From NCBI GenBank assembly GCA_002238415.1, contig MPMI01000003.1, forward strand, positions 62,001-126,000: 64,000 bases of DNA, given 5' to 3'. Source of the stretch: Desulfurellaceae bacterium bin18. Lineage in GTDB: Bacteria > Desulfobacterota > Binatia > Bin18. The stretch's first letter is position 1. Every line of letters starts with the position of its first letter. Of this stretch, positions 31,837 through 38,700 are shown in pieces. Below the pieces are notes generated by a model that worked only from the letters and a program-made list of their open reading frames with translations, did not search any database and was not told where the DNA came from. The translations under genes were made by a program, and so were the position numbers.

Positions 31837-32460
31837 CTAACCGGTCAGACCAATCCGGACCTCTTCGTAACTCGGGCGGCTCTTTAACCGCTCGGCCCAG
31901 GCCGCGACGTGTGGAAACGGACTGAGGTCGATGCCTAATTTGTCACACAGCCCAAGAAACGGGGTAAAGGTGAGGTCGGCCAGGCTGTAGTCGCCCATGA
32001 GATAGTCTTGGTTCTGGAGGCGTTCTTCGAGTTGCGGAAAGAGCGCATTGATTTGGTCTGTATTCCGGGCCATGCGTGCCGGGTCTTGCTCCGCTTTGGG
32101 CTTCCGGCTGGTGTAGAGCAGGCGAATGATCGGCGGCACGAACTGGCTGTTACACAGTTCGATGAGCAGCCGCATTTCAGCCTTGGCGGCCGGCGCCGAC
32201 GGGGAGAGGGCCGGTGTGGGGTAGGTGTCTTCCAAATACTCGTTACAGATGGCCGACTCATAAACCCAGGCGCCTTCTTCGACCAGCACTGGAACCTTCC
32301 CGTACGGGTTAATCGAAAGAAACCACGGTTCTTTTTGTTCTTTGCTCGGCAGGTCTATCAGAATGCGATCAAAGTCGAGCGCTTTTTCTTTGAGAACAAT
32401 CCTTGTTCTCATGGCGAACGGTCAAGGCAGATAGTCGAACAGCTTTCTTTTGATAGTCAT
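31837..32460 (-). CDS. Glutathione S-transferase, probable selenoprotein (in-frame UGA at codon 13)
   Basis: GST-like protein: thioredoxin-fold N-terminus (RIVLKEKALDFDRILIDLP, NPYGKVPVLVEEGAWVYES, the cis-Pro loop) and an all-helical C-terminus (DYSLADLTFTPFLGLCDKLG). Without the upstream part, the frame from ATG 32412 lacks beta-strand 1 and the catalytic residue. Reading upstream in the same frame reaches an ATG at 32460 with AGGAG at the right spacing. It gives MTIKRKLFDYLP, then one TGA (32424-32422), then PFAMRTRIVLKEK, exactly the GST strand-1 pattern with the TGA at the catalytic Ser/Cys position. A hairpin fitting a bacterial SECIS follows. I infer Sec at residue 13 of 207. Conventional gene callers would start at 32412. 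Confidence 0.8.
32391..32411 (-). promoter_or_regulatory. Predicted bacterial SECIS element
   Basis: On the coding strand, TGAGAACA, loop AGGAT, TGTTCTCA form a perfect 8-bp stem, starting 10 bases after the UGA and with the loop 18 bases after it. A G at the second loop position and this spacing fit the rules described for bacterial SECIS elements (G among the first two loop bases, loop about 16-37 bases from UGA). The hairpin lies within the coding region, as expected. Confidence 0.7.
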
Positions 32461-32575
32461 ACCTGGCTCCTCTCCATATTACACACGGACCTCTTTCAAT
32501 ACTGACCCTAGAAAGACCACGGAGCTACGTCAAGCCTGTCTGTCCAGCGAGCGAACATCTCTCCCAAGGTGGTCT

Positions 32576-33040
32576 CTAAATATCATACATCGGCACGTGT
32601 GACTCGTGGCGGCGACTGGCTTCGGCTCGTTGACACATCTCCGCCACACTCACTCGGGCAAAGGCGGCGGCGATGGCCTCACCGACTTCCAACATAATAC
32701 TGCGCAGCCAGCAATATTCGAGACTGGCACAGTCCGCACATTTGGCCGGGTTTGCGTCGGCCACACACGGTAAGGGGACCAGTGGACCGTCCACCGCCCA
32801 GACGACCGTCTGTAACGAGATGGTCTGCGGGTCGCCCGATAAGGTATACCCTCCGGCCTTGCCACGCGTACTCTGGACAAGCCCTACTCGCTTCAGGGCG
32901 AGCAGCACTTGTTCCAGAAATTTCTTGGGAATGCGCCCTCGACGTGCAATCTCCTGAATAGACAACACATCAGGGGCGCCGGGCGCCCCCATACAGGCTA
33001 GCGCCCTGAGAGCATATTCGCCTTTCTTCGAGATTTTCAT
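32576..33040 (-). CDS. Rrf2 family transcriptional regulator
   Basis: A 154-residue winged-helix regulator of the IscR/NsrR/CymR group. MKISKKGEYALRALACMG starts helix 1, LSIQEIARRGRIPKKFLEQV is the recognition region, and VGLVQSTRGKAGGYTLSG is the wing. Cysteines in PCVADANPAKCADCASLEYC match the 3-Cys cluster for a [2Fe-2S] centre, so it can probably sense redox or Fe-S status. It is divergent from the sulfite/nitrite reductase gene with 188 bases between, and a dyad lies in that region, so it is a likely regulator of that gene. Confidence 0.88.
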   Translation of the reverse strand: MKISKKGEYALRALACMGAPGAPDVLSIQEIARRGRIPKKFLEQVLLALKRVGLVQSTRGKAGGYTLSGDPQTISLQTVVWAVDGPLVPLPCVADANPAKCADCASLEYCWLRSIMLEVGEAIAAAFARVSVAEMCQRAEASRRHESHVPMYDI

Positions 33041-33228: not shown

Positions 33229-35037
33229 ATGCATACAGCAGGCGACCAGAGGGGACATGCAGGCACACTTGAGAACCCTGAAGTGCGCCCGCATATTCCC
33301 GGCCGTGTCATTCCTATTCTCGAAAGGGAATTCAACGATTTTGATGCCGACGCGCAAAGGTTCCTTGATGGGGAGATAGACCGTCAGACATTTATGGGTT
33401 TCCGGCTCCGCCAGGGTGTCTATGGACAACGGCAGCCGGACGTCCAGATGATCCGGGTCAAGCTCCCTTTCGGTGGATTCACGCCGGACCAGTTCGACAC
33501 TTTTGCCGAGATAGCCGAAACTTATGCACCTCTTAAAAAAGGCCACATTACCACCCGGCAAAATGTCCAGTTCCATTTCATTCCCCTGTTAGAAGCCGCA
33601 CGGATACTGCGAAAGCTTGGCGACGCCGGTTTGTCGACGCGGGAGGCGTGCGGCAACACGGTCCGGAATGTGGTGTGTGATCCCTTTGCCGGTGTCGACC
33701 CGGACGAGGCATTTGACCCCACCCCATACGTGGGCGCACTGGTCCGCTATTTCATTCGGAACGAACTGACCCAGACTCTTCCCCGAAAATTCAAGGTCGC
33801 CTTCTCCAGTACCGAGAAAGATCGTGCGGTGACGGGCATCCACGATCTGGGTTTTATTCCCCGTCTCAAAGACGGTCGCAAGGGTTTCCGCGTCTATACC
33901 GGCGGGGGGACATCGATTCTACCTCGGGTGGGCCGTGTTTTGTATGACTTTGTTGGGCTGAACGACTATCTCAAAGTCGCGGAAGCGGTCATCCGTATTT
34001 TTGACCGACAAGACGAGTTGCGTCAAAACCGCTCCCGCGCCCGGATGAAATTCTTTATCGATCGGATTGGTCTGGAGGCATTTCGCGCGCTCGTTGACGC
34101 GGAGATGCAAGGCGACTGGGTCAACAAGCGCGACCTTGACCCCGAGCTCCTGCAATGGAACGACAACGAAGAAGAGCGGGCTCCGCGAGCCCCCATCAAG
34201 CCCGGTAGCCCGAACGGCGACCCTCAGGAGTTCGCCCGCTGGGCTGCGGCCAATGTGCAGCCGCAACGCCAGGAGGGATTTTCGACTGCAGAAGTGAAAA
34301 TCCCTCAGGGGAATCTGACGCCGGAACAGTTCCGCGGCGTGGCCCAGATCGTGCGCGGGTTCACCGGGGGTCACGCTCGAACATCGGACGAACAGAACGT
34401 CGTGCTGCGTTGGGTTCGGAATGAGAGCCTATACGATGTGTGGAGGCGATTGCAGGCAATCGGTCTGGGCGATGCCGGGGCACACCAGATCAATGACCTC
34501 GTGAGTTGTCCTGGGACTGACAGTTGCAAGCTCGGCATTACAAACTCCATGGGACTGGCGCGAGCCATTCAACAGCGAGTTGAAGCCCTTGCCATCGATG
34601 ATCCGCTTACCAAAAAAATCCATATCAAGATAAGCGGCTGTCCCAACGGCTGTGGACGCCACCATATTGCCGATATCGGCTTTTACGGCGCGGCCATGAA
34701 GTTCGACAAGCATCAGGTCCCCGCCTATATCGTCATGCTGGGCGGCCAATACGATGCGGGCCAGGTCCGTATGGGCCAACGTCTGGATGTCCGTGTTCCG
34801 GCAAAACGCGTCCCCGAGGCGGTCGAACGATTCGTCCGGCATTATCAGGCGTATCGCCACGCGTGCGAGGCGTTCGCCGCCTTCGTCGAGCGCGTGGGAA
34901 TCGGTCCGTTTGAAGGTCTGATCACAGATCTCTCACTTCCGGTGACGTTTGACGATAGGCATATGCACGAGTTTATCGATTGGAACCAGAATCGGGTCTA
35001 TAAACTCGAACGCGGCGAGGGCGAGTGCACGGCCTAG
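33229..35037 (+). CDS. Siroheme nitrite/sulfite reductase
   Basis: A 602-residue assimilatory nitrite/sulfite reductase (NirA/CysI type), six-electron reduction of nitrite to ammonia or sulfite to sulfide. The [4Fe-4S]-siroheme cysteines are seen as CPGTDSC (Cys427, Cys433) and CPNGC (Cys471, Cys475). Two ferrodoxin-like halves are visible, each with a VKLPFGGFTPDQF or VKIPQGNLTPEQF start, and RQNVQFHFIPLLEA and EQNVVLRWVRNES pair as siroheme-binding segments. The substrate cannot be fixed from sequence. Nearby cysK and msrB make sulfite a reasonable choice. GAGGAG precedes the ATG. Promoter and dyad upstream; the Rrf2 regulator is divergent. Confidence 0.9.
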   Translation: MHTAGDQRGHAGTLENPEVRPHIPGRVIPILEREFNDFDADAQRFLDGEIDRQTFMGFRLRQGVYGQRQPDVQMIRVKLPFGGFTPDQFDTFAEIAETYAPLKKGHITTRQNVQFHFIPLLEAARILRKLGDAGLSTREACGNTVRNVVCDPFAGVDPDEAFDPTPYVGALVRYFIRNELTQTLPRKFKVAFSSTEKDRAVTGIHDLGFIPRLKDGRKGFRVYTGGGTSILPRVGRVLYDFVGLNDYLKVAEAVIRIFDRQDELRQNRSRARMKFFIDRIGLEAFRALVDAEMQGDWVNKRDLDPELLQWNDNEEERAPRAPIKPGSPNGDPQEFARWAAANVQPQRQEGFSTAEVKIPQGNLTPEQFRGVAQIVRGFTGGHARTSDEQNVVLRWVRNESLYDVWRRLQAIGLGDAGAHQINDLVSCPGTDSCKLGITNSMGLARAIQQRVEALAIDDPLTKKIHIKISGCPNGCGRHHIADIGFYGAAMKFDKHQVPAYIVMLGGQYDAGQVRMGQRLDVRVPAKRVPEAVERFVRHYQAYRHACEAFAAFVERVGIGPFEGLITDLSLPVTFDDRHMHEFIDWNQNRVYKLERGEGECTA

Positions 35038-35192
35038 ACACTCTTCAACCGTCAAACCTGACGCAGAGTCGCTGAAACGGAGTGAGCAAAAAGCGCGGTA
35101 TGCACTGCGTTCTGGAGAGCGGCCGTTTTGAGCGCGAATACCGCGCGAACTTTTACCGGAATGGCGAGGGCATTGCCGGCGTTTCCCCCGCG

Positions 35193-36251
35193 CTACGACT
35201 CGATGACCTCGGCAAACGCCTGCATGAACCGCTGCATCTGTTCAAGCGTCCCCAGGCTCAGCCGAAAACTGCCGTCAATCACGGGCTTGCCCCGCATATT
35301 GCGGACCAGGATGCCTTGCTCGCGCAGGGCATTTTCAACCACCTCGCACTCTCGCGGCGGCCAGACGAGCAGATAGTTACCGCCTTGCCCAAAATATCGC
35401 ACGCCTAAACGCCGGAGCTGTTGCGTCACCCATTCCCTGGCAGCCTGGACCTGCTGGACGTACTGTTCGACATAATCACGATCGGCGAGCGCGGCTTTTC
35501 CGGCGATCACCGCGAAGGCGTTAATATCATAGGGGCCGGTGACACGGCTGAGCCGACCCACGACCTCGGGCTGACCAATGGCAAAGCCCAACCGCAAGGC
35601 GGCCAAGCCCGCAGATTTGGACAGGGACTGAAGCACCACAATATTGCCCAGTTCAAGGGCGGCCGGCAGGACCGACTTCTTCGTGAAATCCGCATATAAC
35701 TCGTCCACCACAATCAGGGTATCGGGCGCGGCGCGGGCCAACTCCAGCAAGGTCTGCGGTTCGAGTAGGGTGCCGGTTGGATTGTTGGGATTACAGATAA
35801 AACAGAGCCGAGGCGTCTGCGTGAGCCGCCCGCGCATGGACTCAAGCGGGAAACTCAAGTCATCGGGATACAGGACTTCATCCTGTTGCATGCCGTGCTG
35901 GAGGGCGCACGGCTTGTAATAGCCAAAGGTCGGCGCGGTTGTCAGAAAGGTACTTCCCTTTTCGCCATAGACATCAAAGATGGTGTGAATGGCCGCATCC
36001 ACCCCGTTAAAAGCTTCTACGTAGCGGGCCGGGACGTTGATGGACGCTGCATACGCCTCGTTCAGGCCGGCATATTCCGGATAGGTCGCGTAGGCATTAG
36101 GCGGTAGGCGGCGAATGGCCTCAACGACCTTTGGGCTTGGGCCGACCGTGTTTTCATTAAAGTCGAGGCGCAGCATGGGCCGCCGCCCTTCGAGCGGGGC
36201 AACATAGGGCTCAAGCTGTTCGATTTCAGACCTAGCCTTGATCATAACCAC
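35193..36251 (-). CDS. hisC: Pyridoxal-phosphate aminotransferase, histidinol-phosphate type
   Basis: Class I/II aminotransferase of the HisC group, 352 residues, which converts imidazole-acetol phosphate and glutamate to histidinol phosphate and 2-oxoglutarate, or acts on aromatic amino acids. LRLDFNENTVGPSPKVVEAI is the N-terminal signature, ICNPNNPTGTLLEPQTL contains the substrate Asn, and QSLSKSAGLAALRLGF includes the PLP Lys. IDGSFRLSLGTLEQMQ closes with the phosphate Arg. No other his gene is nearby, so the paralogue may be specialised. The opposite-strand reading frame at 35082-35408 is a shadow. Confidence 0.85.
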   Translation of the reverse strand: MVMIKARSEIEQLEPYVAPLEGRRPMLRLDFNENTVGPSPKVVEAIRRLPPNAYATYPEYAGLNEAYAASINVPARYVEAFNGVDAAIHTIFDVYGEKGSTFLTTAPTFGYYKPCALQHGMQQDEVLYPDDLSFPLESMRGRLTQTPRLCFICNPNNPTGTLLEPQTLLELARAAPDTLIVVDELYADFTKKSVLPAALELGNIVVLQSLSKSAGLAALRLGFAIGQPEVVGRLSRVTGPYDINAFAVIAGKAALADRDYVEQYVQQVQAAREWVTQQLRRLGVRYFGQGGNYLLVWPPRECEVVENALREQGILVRNMRGKPVIDGSFRLSLGTLEQMQRFMQAFAEVIES

Positions 36252-36275
36252 GCGATCTGGTGATTCCGTCTGCCA

Positions 36276-37199
36276 CTACCCAAAATGGGGCAGGATGTCT
36301 TGCCCATAATGTTCAAGCTGAGACGGGATATCAGCCGGCGGGCAGATAGGCCGGAGCACAAATTTATCGCAACCGACTTCCACAAAGCGCTCGATCTGCT
36401 CCACGCACTCTTGGGCCGAACCGATCAACGAGCGCCGCATGATGGCCTCCGGATCGACCCGCAAGCCGTGGAAGAACGGCTCAACCGTTTTCATGGCCGC
36501 AGCCCGGTCGTCGCACACATGAGTGAAGAGCAGCACCCCGGCCTCGCGCGGATCAATCGTCCGTCCATACTCTTCCCCATACACCTTGAGCTTTTCCATA
36601 TCGCGCTGAAACTCGACGGGTGAGGTCAATGCGGGGAACCAGCCGTCCCCGAGACGAACGACGCGTTTGAGAATCGCATCACTCTTGCCGCCAATCCAGA
36701 TATCGAGCGCTCCCTGCTTCGGTTTGGGCTCAAGCGTCACATCCTCAAAATGGTAGAACTCACCATGATGCGTGACGTGCGATTCCGTCCAGAGTTTGCG
36801 CAGAATCTCAATCCCTTCCTCAAGGCGACGGCCACGAGCCTGAGGAGGCACCCCGCACGCAACCAAATCGCGCGGATCGTTACCGCTCCCGACGGCCATG
36901 ATCATCCGTCCGTTTGAAAGATAGTCGAGGGTGGCATAGGTCTTGGCCACCTGGACCGGATGGCGCGCCGGCAGGGTAAAGACGCTCGGTCCCATTTTCA
37001 GGCGGGAGGTGCGACCGGCAATCATGGCGAACAAACAGGAGATGTCCAGCGTGGGGTTAATGGTCACGATATGATCGGACAACCATAACGAATCAAGCCC
37101 GGCGGCCTCTGCCGCTGCTGCGCTGCTGCACAGGAGTTCGGGGTCGGGTAAGCCATACTTCCATTGTCCAAAGCCGATACCGATTTTTACGCCACTCAT
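36276..37199 (-). CDS. LLM class F420-dependent oxidoreductase
   Basis: A 307-residue luciferase-fold protein. [19 protein letters not shown] begins the barrel; [37 protein letters not shown] and [19 protein letters not shown] are group hallmarks. The final [14 protein letters not shown] is the usual C-terminal strand. Cofactor likely F420 or FMN, substrate unknown. The start at 37199 is preferred because it aligns with family starts; the frame is open further upstream. It follows hisC on the same strand and is divergent from msrB. Confidence 0.85.
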
Positions 37200-37299
37200 G
37201 GTGCTCCTCCGTGCTCTTTCCGACGGGTGCTTCTCGCTGTATATAGGTGAAGCTATCAGACGGGAGCAAAGAGTACAGACCAACGAGGGAGCGTACACT

Positions 37300-37692
37300 A
37301 TGGGCAGTAAAGTCGAGAAGACCGAAGAGGAATGGCGCGCGCAGCTCACCCCCGAGCAGTTTGCCGTCTGTCGGATGAAGGCGACCGAGCGACCGTTCTC
37401 AGGCGAATACAACGCCTGTAAGGATGAGGGCATCTATCAGTGCGTGTGTTGCGGCACCGACCTGTTTAACTCATCCACCAAATACGAATCGAGCAGTGGT
37501 TGGCCCAGCTTCTGGGAACCGGTGCAGCCGAACAGCGTGCGCCTGGAATCGGACCAGAGCCACGGCATGATCCGGACCGAAGTACTGTGCAACACCTGCG
37601 ATGCGCATTTAGGCCATGTCTTCGACGATGGCCCACCGCCAACCGGGCAGCGCTATTGCATGAACTCCATCTCGCTTCAGCTCAAGAAGTGA
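37300..37692 (+). CDS. msrB: Peptide-methionine (R)-S-oxide reductase
   Basis: A 130-residue MsrB that reduces methionine-R-sulfoxide in proteins. [20 protein letters not shown] and [16 protein letters not shown] carry the CxxC zinc pairs, [10 protein letters not shown] is the conserved tryptophan segment and [11 protein letters not shown] has the catalytic Cys. The whole chain is the usual length. The ATG at 37300 gives a complete family N-terminus. It is divergent from the LLM gene and precedes cysK by 78 bases, with which it may be cotranscribed. Confidence 0.95.
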
Positions 37693-37770
37693 AGAAGAGG
37701 ACGGGCATCTGTCCTTGCTGACCGGCGCTCTGCGTCGGCACCGAGCGGCAAGCTAGCCACGGCAACCAGG

Positions 37771-38700
37771 ATGGCTCGTTTGTTTCACGACATCACCGCA
37801 ACCATTGGCCATACGCCCTTAGTGCGGCTCAATCGCCTCACGCAGGGTATGGAAGCAGAGGTGTATGCCAAGCTGGAGTTCTTCAACCCCCTGGGTAGCG
37901 TGAAAGATCGGATTGGCTCCAATATGATTGCGGCCGCGGAACAGGCCGGCAAGCTCAATGCGAATAGTGTCATCATTGAACCGACCAGTGGCAACACTGG
38001 TATCGCCCTCGCCTTTGTTGCCGCAGCCCGGGGCTATCGGATCATCCTGACCATGCCCGACTCCATGAGCGTGGAGCGGCGCAATCTGCTGCGCCTCCTT
38101 GGCGCGGAACTGGTCCTCACACCCGCCAGCGAAGGGATGCCCGGAGCAATTCGCAAAGCCGAGGAGCTCGCCGTAAGCATCACCCACGCCTTTATTCCGC
38201 AGCAGTTTGAGAATCCGGCCAACCCGGACATTCATCGCCGGACCACGGCCCGTGAGATTTGGGAAGACACCGACGGCCAAGTCGATATTTTTATCAGCGG
38301 TGTGGGAACGGGTGGGACCATCACTGGCGTGTCTGAGGTGATTAAGCCTCTCAAACCGAGTTTCCAGGCCATCGCCGTCGAGCCGGCCAGTTCGGCAGTA
38401 CTCTCGGGCGGCCAGCCGGGACCTACCCGGATTCAAGGGATCGGCGCCGGGTTCGTCCCGGCTATTCTGAATAGCGGCATTATTGATAAAATCATCACCG
38501 TTCGTGATGAAGATGCGCTCGCCACGGCGCGCCGGCTTGCCAGGCACGAGGGCATTCCCGCCGGCATCAGCAGCGGCGCCACAGTCTGGGCCGCGCTCCA
38601 GGTCGCTGCCCGTCCCGAAAATGCTGGAAAAATGCTCGTTGTTATTCTGGCCAGCTCGGCCGAGCGGTATTTGAGTACGGCGTTGGTTGAGGACCTCTAG
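37771..38700 (+). CDS. cysK: Cysteine synthase A
   Basis: O-acetylserine sulfhydrylase, 309 residues, a PLP enzyme making cysteine from O-acetylserine and sulfide. [14 protein letters not shown] opens the fold, [16 protein letters not shown] carries the PLP Lys, [20 protein letters not shown] the phosphate-binding and Asn loop, and [16 protein letters not shown] the glycine loop. The sulfide it needs could come from the sulfite reductase 4.5 kb upstream. Its end is 15 bases from the stop of a convergent SDR gene. Confidence 0.93.

Follow-up and report, generated by a model that had tools for sequence, protein, structure and literature searches.

The locus examined here raises the question of whether an in-frame TGA upstream of an apparently ordinary glutathione S-transferase (GST) gene is a stop codon or encodes a catalytic selenocysteine (Sec). 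The window, that is, the whole 64,000-nucleotide stretch of DNA that we analysed, carries on its minus strand an open reading frame (ORF) that runs from an ATG at 32412 to a stop codon at 31837 and encodes 191 amino acids (translation table 11). The first-pass annotation had pointed out that this frame lacks strand 1 and the catalytic residue of GSTs, that an in-frame ATG with a good AGGAG site lies 48 nt upstream, and that exactly one TGA separates the two ATGs. These observations held: the upstream ATG is at 32460, preceded by GGAGAGGAG (32475-32467) and a 6-nt spacer, and the single TGA (32424-32422) is codon 13 of the longer frame. When TGA is translated as Sec (U), the N terminus becomes MTIKRKLFDYLP-U-PFAMRTRIVLKEK..., which restores strand 1 and aligns the predicted Sec with the CPF-motif Cys that is catalytic in homologues. 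The elements of the gene are as follows.

31837..32460, minus strand: predicted Sec-containing GST-like protein, 207 amino acids, Sec13 (translation with TGA as U; Pfam; AlphaFold2)
32467..32475, minus strand: Shine-Dalgarno sequence ahead of the upstream ATG (from the sequence; congeners differ at one base only)
32422..32424, minus strand: predicted Sec UGA, codon 13, where CPF-type GSTs have their catalytic Cys (alignment; TGA in 15 of 16 family genomes)
32410..32412, minus strand: internal ATG (Met17), the start picked by ordinary annotation, giving a protein without strand 1 (ORF call)

The position of the TGA had been assigned to the catalytic Ser/Cys of GSTs, and alignment with homologues confirmed this: the UGA falls on the Cys of the CPFS motif of Burkholderia SspA (6v91/4qq7). 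Most GST homologues from Binatia carry TGC or TGT at this codon, and some more distant ones encode Ser. These Cys/Ser GSTs of Binatia share 36-46% identity with the Sec-GST and align with it residue by residue through strand 1 and helix 1, but have TGC/TGT or a Ser codon in place of TGA, so they would not need the UGA-linked hairpin described below. Relatives that start at the internal ATG and lack strand 1 had been named as evidence that would count against Sec; instead, all listed homologues have strand 1, with TGA or Cys/Ser at the position of codon 13, so translation did not ancestrally begin at the internal ATG.

A class-wide search detected the TGA, the upstream frame and the hairpin in 7/7 genomes of the genus and 8/9 other genomes of the family, where protein identity outside the genus is 65-69%. 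Six Candidatus Binatia/Binatota MAGs, which are probably the six congeners of the genome search and were counted once, carry the gene at 96-99% identity with TGA and hairpin in all, and their differences within the 36 nt from the start ATG to the TGA are all synonymous. The in-frame UGA is thus shared between species, and the sequence around it is conserved both before and after the codon.

We considered whether the UGA might be a genuine stop, the upstream ATG opening a 12-codon leader and the protein starting at ATG 32412 as a GST without strand 1. This internal ATG is in frame, is conserved in the family of the window gene and is the default ORF call, but its product would have no catalytic residue, and inspection of the sequence before it revealed no Shine-Dalgarno-type site. 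The peptide R-K-L-F-D-Y-L-P/A, encoded by codons 5-12, matches strand 1 of Cys GSTs in alignment and is preserved across nine family sequences, although where two sequences share a residue their codons differ in 60% of pairs; a near-constant peptide at this level of synonymous divergence indicates that the stretch is translated. Moreover, the internal ATG is absent (PYARKTRI) from a second Sec-GST clade that has TGA at the same codon. We reject initiation at 32412 as very improbable.

Downstream of the TGA, the following element is found.

32391..32411, minus strand: predicted bacterial SECIS hairpin TGAGAACAA-GGA-TTGTTCTCA (fold; covariation; synonymous variation near the minimum for the gene)

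The hairpin begins 10 nt past the TGA, as had been proposed from the sequence. The earlier description gave a perfect 8-bp stem with loop AGGAU at 18 bases; when the closing A-U pair is counted, the stem has 9 bp and a GGA loop that opens 19 nt past the TGA. Bacterial SECIS elements are expected to have an apical loop of 3-9 nt with G in its first two positions, a stem of 4-16 bp, a distance of 16-37 nt from the UGA and a minimum free energy of at most -7.5 kcal/mol (PMC13188914). With its GGA loop, 9 bp, 19 nt and -9.0 kcal/mol, the hairpin fits these rules throughout, as the first-pass annotation had supposed, and 0/200 dinucleotide shuffles folded equally well. The two strands of the window together contain 1,970 TGA triplets, of which just 4 (0.2%), the GST codon included, are followed at 16-37 nt by a perfect SECIS-like stem of at least 9 bp. 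The remaining three (3143, 6368 and 6383, all plus strand) are on the strand opposite long ORFs and were discarded. When 57 candidates for TGA readthrough outside long ORFs in the window were read by eye, only the GST made sense. We exclude chance because of the rarity of the stem, the match to the Cys position and the conservation among relatives.

Two further signals coincide with the hairpin. Of all 11-codon stretches of the gene, codons 13-23 vary least synonymously across nine family sequences (27% versus 53% elsewhere). Across 13 hairpins, including that of a distant GST (L056), 97.4% of pair cells are paired and three pairs have changed on both sides, counts that are inflated by the relatedness of the sequences; sliding the stem partners by 1-3 columns lowers pairing to 36-48%. 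Covariation and the synonymous minimum together argue strongly for an RNA element at this site.

The host genome (5.24 Mb, 96% complete), from an uncultured bacterium of the class Binatia, appears equipped to decode UGA as Sec. The first-pass annotation had proposed a search for selA, selB, selC and selD, whose absence would have spoken against Sec; we found selA (E 6.5e-159), tRNA-Sec (70.7 bits, passing the Rfam cut-off, at a distance of about 250 nt from selA), selB (382 bits) and selD (310 bits). The selD gene (contig C78, 56985-57902) lies within a 759-amino-acid open frame, so its product may carry an additional fused domain; fusions of Ndh with SelD have been described (PMC2398784). Outside the window, CxxUGA occurs in nine AhpD-like (TIGR01926) genes of the genome; most of them have a good downstream SECIS-like stem and several a loop that starts with GG, so UGA decoding is apparently in wide use. 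One of these genes lies on the window's own contig (C81, 33837-34686). None of the FdhA homologues of this genome contains an in-frame TGA.

Since Sec is assigned to the codon by inference, the UGA could in principle be read as another amino acid, through nonsense suppression or an altered code. Against this, UGA serves as the stop codon of 6 of the 39 long ORFs in the window, the genome holds the full Sec machinery, and in ten genes a UGA occupies a redox Cys site and is followed by a SECIS-like stem; we give this reading a very slim chance. An assembly or sequencing error, or a pseudogene mutation, is suggested by the single base that separates TGA from the TGC/TGT of Cys homologues, but is refuted, to the point of being negligible, by the same TGA in 15 separate family genomes and by an otherwise intact coding sequence under purifying selection with a co-conserved hairpin. 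A base other than TGA in fresh reads had been named as a possible objection; the relatives do not bear it out, because the same TGA in the six congeneric MAGs and eight further family genomes rules out a base-call error.

A few genomes depart from the pattern. Two of the Sec-GST genomes tested for selA lack it. One of them (G346) has selB and tRNA-Sec, so its selA is probably in an assembly gap. The other (G198), which is distant, carries the TGA-containing GST L056 on contig C85 with an excellent hairpin; neither selA, selB nor tRNA-Sec was found in its assembly, which is rated 100% complete, and its congeners have selB and mostly tRNA-Sec. The contig that carries L056 may be misbinned, or the Sec trait may have been lost recently. 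One family member (G311) has the Sec machinery and no close TGA-containing GST. A class-level TGA match in G357 was rejected as a Sec-GST, because codon 13 encodes Cys and the TGA lies at another position; this genome is without Sec machinery.

From the gene, the codon, the hairpin, their conservation and the decoding machinery, all of them computed, we infer Sec incorporation at codon 13. We regard it as very probable that the locus encodes a GST-fold enzyme with Sec as its catalytic residue, inserted at the UGA by way of a SelB-bound hairpin. Translation would begin at ATG 32460 and the ribosome would reach the UGA at codon 13, where Sec-tRNA-Sec would be delivered by SelB attached to the hairpin that begins 10 nt further on. 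Sec would then occupy the N-terminal end of helix 1, the Cys site of Cys-type GSTs (SspA-like and omega-like, with the CPF motif), and its selenolate may form a selenenyl-sulfide with glutathione.

The second Sec-GST clade is found in 12 genomes of another family (f5), has about 40% identity to the first and presents the UGA in the context FDYK-P/L-U-P. Its candidate SECIS has a stable stem and a GGA loop at 32 nt, compared with 19 nt in the clade of the window gene. Predicted folds of the f5 sequences also contain an extra short hairpin between the UGA and the SECIS. The two clades are apart in a first tree, whose starred branches force at least two changes, and adjacent with weak support in another; in an AU test against a single Sec clade, one clade was not rejected (p = 0.068). 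Sec may have a single origin in these GSTs, the SECIS having shifted afterwards, or it may have two. We give somewhat less than even weight to the tentative proposal that there were several origins of Sec within one class, all at one catalytic position of the GST fold, and that each came with a SECIS that had evolved anew in its own register (19 versus 32 nt). If so, Binatia GSTs would be a natural system for studying Cys-to-Sec conversion and the birth of a SECIS within coding sequence.

As to function, the thioredoxin-like N-domain (GST_N) and the helical C-domain (GST_C) both score above the Pfam cut-offs (GST_N_2, PF13409, the best match, E 8e-20; GST_C, E 4e-12). The AlphaFold2 model (pLDDT 93.1, pTM 0.89) has a strand at residues 5-9 and places residue 13 just ahead of a helix at 14-25; it superimposes over its full length on the GST 4ri7 (Z 25.9, rmsd 2.3, 205 residues). 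V56, P57 and S69 are invariant in 28 sequences, and we take V56-P57 (the cis-Pro VP motif) and S69 (of a Glu/Asp-Ser motif) to be glutathione-site residues. The genome also encodes glutathione synthetase (gshB, 402 bits). The protein scored below the NCBIfam equivalog cut-offs for MaiA (82 of 171 bits) and SspA (67 of 314 bits). Cys-type GSTs are mainly glutathione-dependent thiol transferases or reductases, and Sec is a stronger nucleophile that forms reversible Se-S bonds, which together point to a glutathione-dependent reductase or deglutathionylase. On the basis of fold and neighbours, our prediction is a glutathione-dependent thiol/selenol reductase, either a deglutathionylase or a reductase of the peroxide/dehydroascorbate type, and not the conjugating activity of classical transferases. 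Upstream lies the following neighbour.

32576..33040, minus strand: Rrf2-family protein, the likely regulator (PF02082, E 7e-32; synteny)

This gene adjoins the GST gene in most family members tested. Other neighbours are a divergent NirA-family siroheme reductase and a downstream metallo-beta-lactamase-fold protein, and the neighbourhood is consistent with a sulfur/redox setting. Near the Rrf2-GST pair, the region 33229-38700 of the window contains the NirA-family siroheme reductase together with MsrB-like and cysteine-synthase-like ORFs, the latter two recognized by eye.

The first-pass annotation stated that Sec forms of thioredoxin-fold redox families occur in marine metagenomes. GST-like members have been listed since 2005, with four sequences from the Sargasso Sea (PMC1088965), so the novelty is lower than that annotation implied. 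Twelve sequences followed in the GOS survey of 2008 (PMC2398784), and reviews of 2022 and 2026 include the group (PMC9312934, PMC13188914), the latter describing the functions of such proteins as largely uncharacterized (PMC13188914). The publications consulted on GST-like selenoproteins mention no Binatota host, covariation test or function, and a full-text literature search for Binatota and selenocysteine returned a reference-list mention only. What is new here is the Binatia host, the family-wide conservation, the covariation evidence and the two SECIS registers. A family known mainly from marine reads is thereby seen together with its host lineage, decoding machinery, covarying SECIS, Cys homologues and conserved neighbourhood, and the results suggest that Binatia use Sec and have a large set of AhpD-like selenoproteins. 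Standard annotation, by starting at the internal ATG, would truncate the enzyme and lose its catalytic residue.

The window gene is most likely a well-supported addition to the known GST-like selenoproteins. Published members (COG0625/PF13409) share with it a GST homologue with Sec, an in-frame UGA, a downstream bacterial SECIS and widespread Cys homologues; the published entries are short metagenome reads and example accessions (such as PPR62222.1 and MEK9676863.1), and the gene is grouped with them by the shared definition of GST fold plus Sec. Among Cys enzymes, the SspA-like and omega-class GSTs (6v91, 4qq7, GSTO1) have the same fold and a CPF-type motif that aligns with U-PFA, and Burkholderia SspA shares 33-34% identity with the Sec-GST. 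These GSTs use Cys, whereas the window protein is predicted to use Sec.
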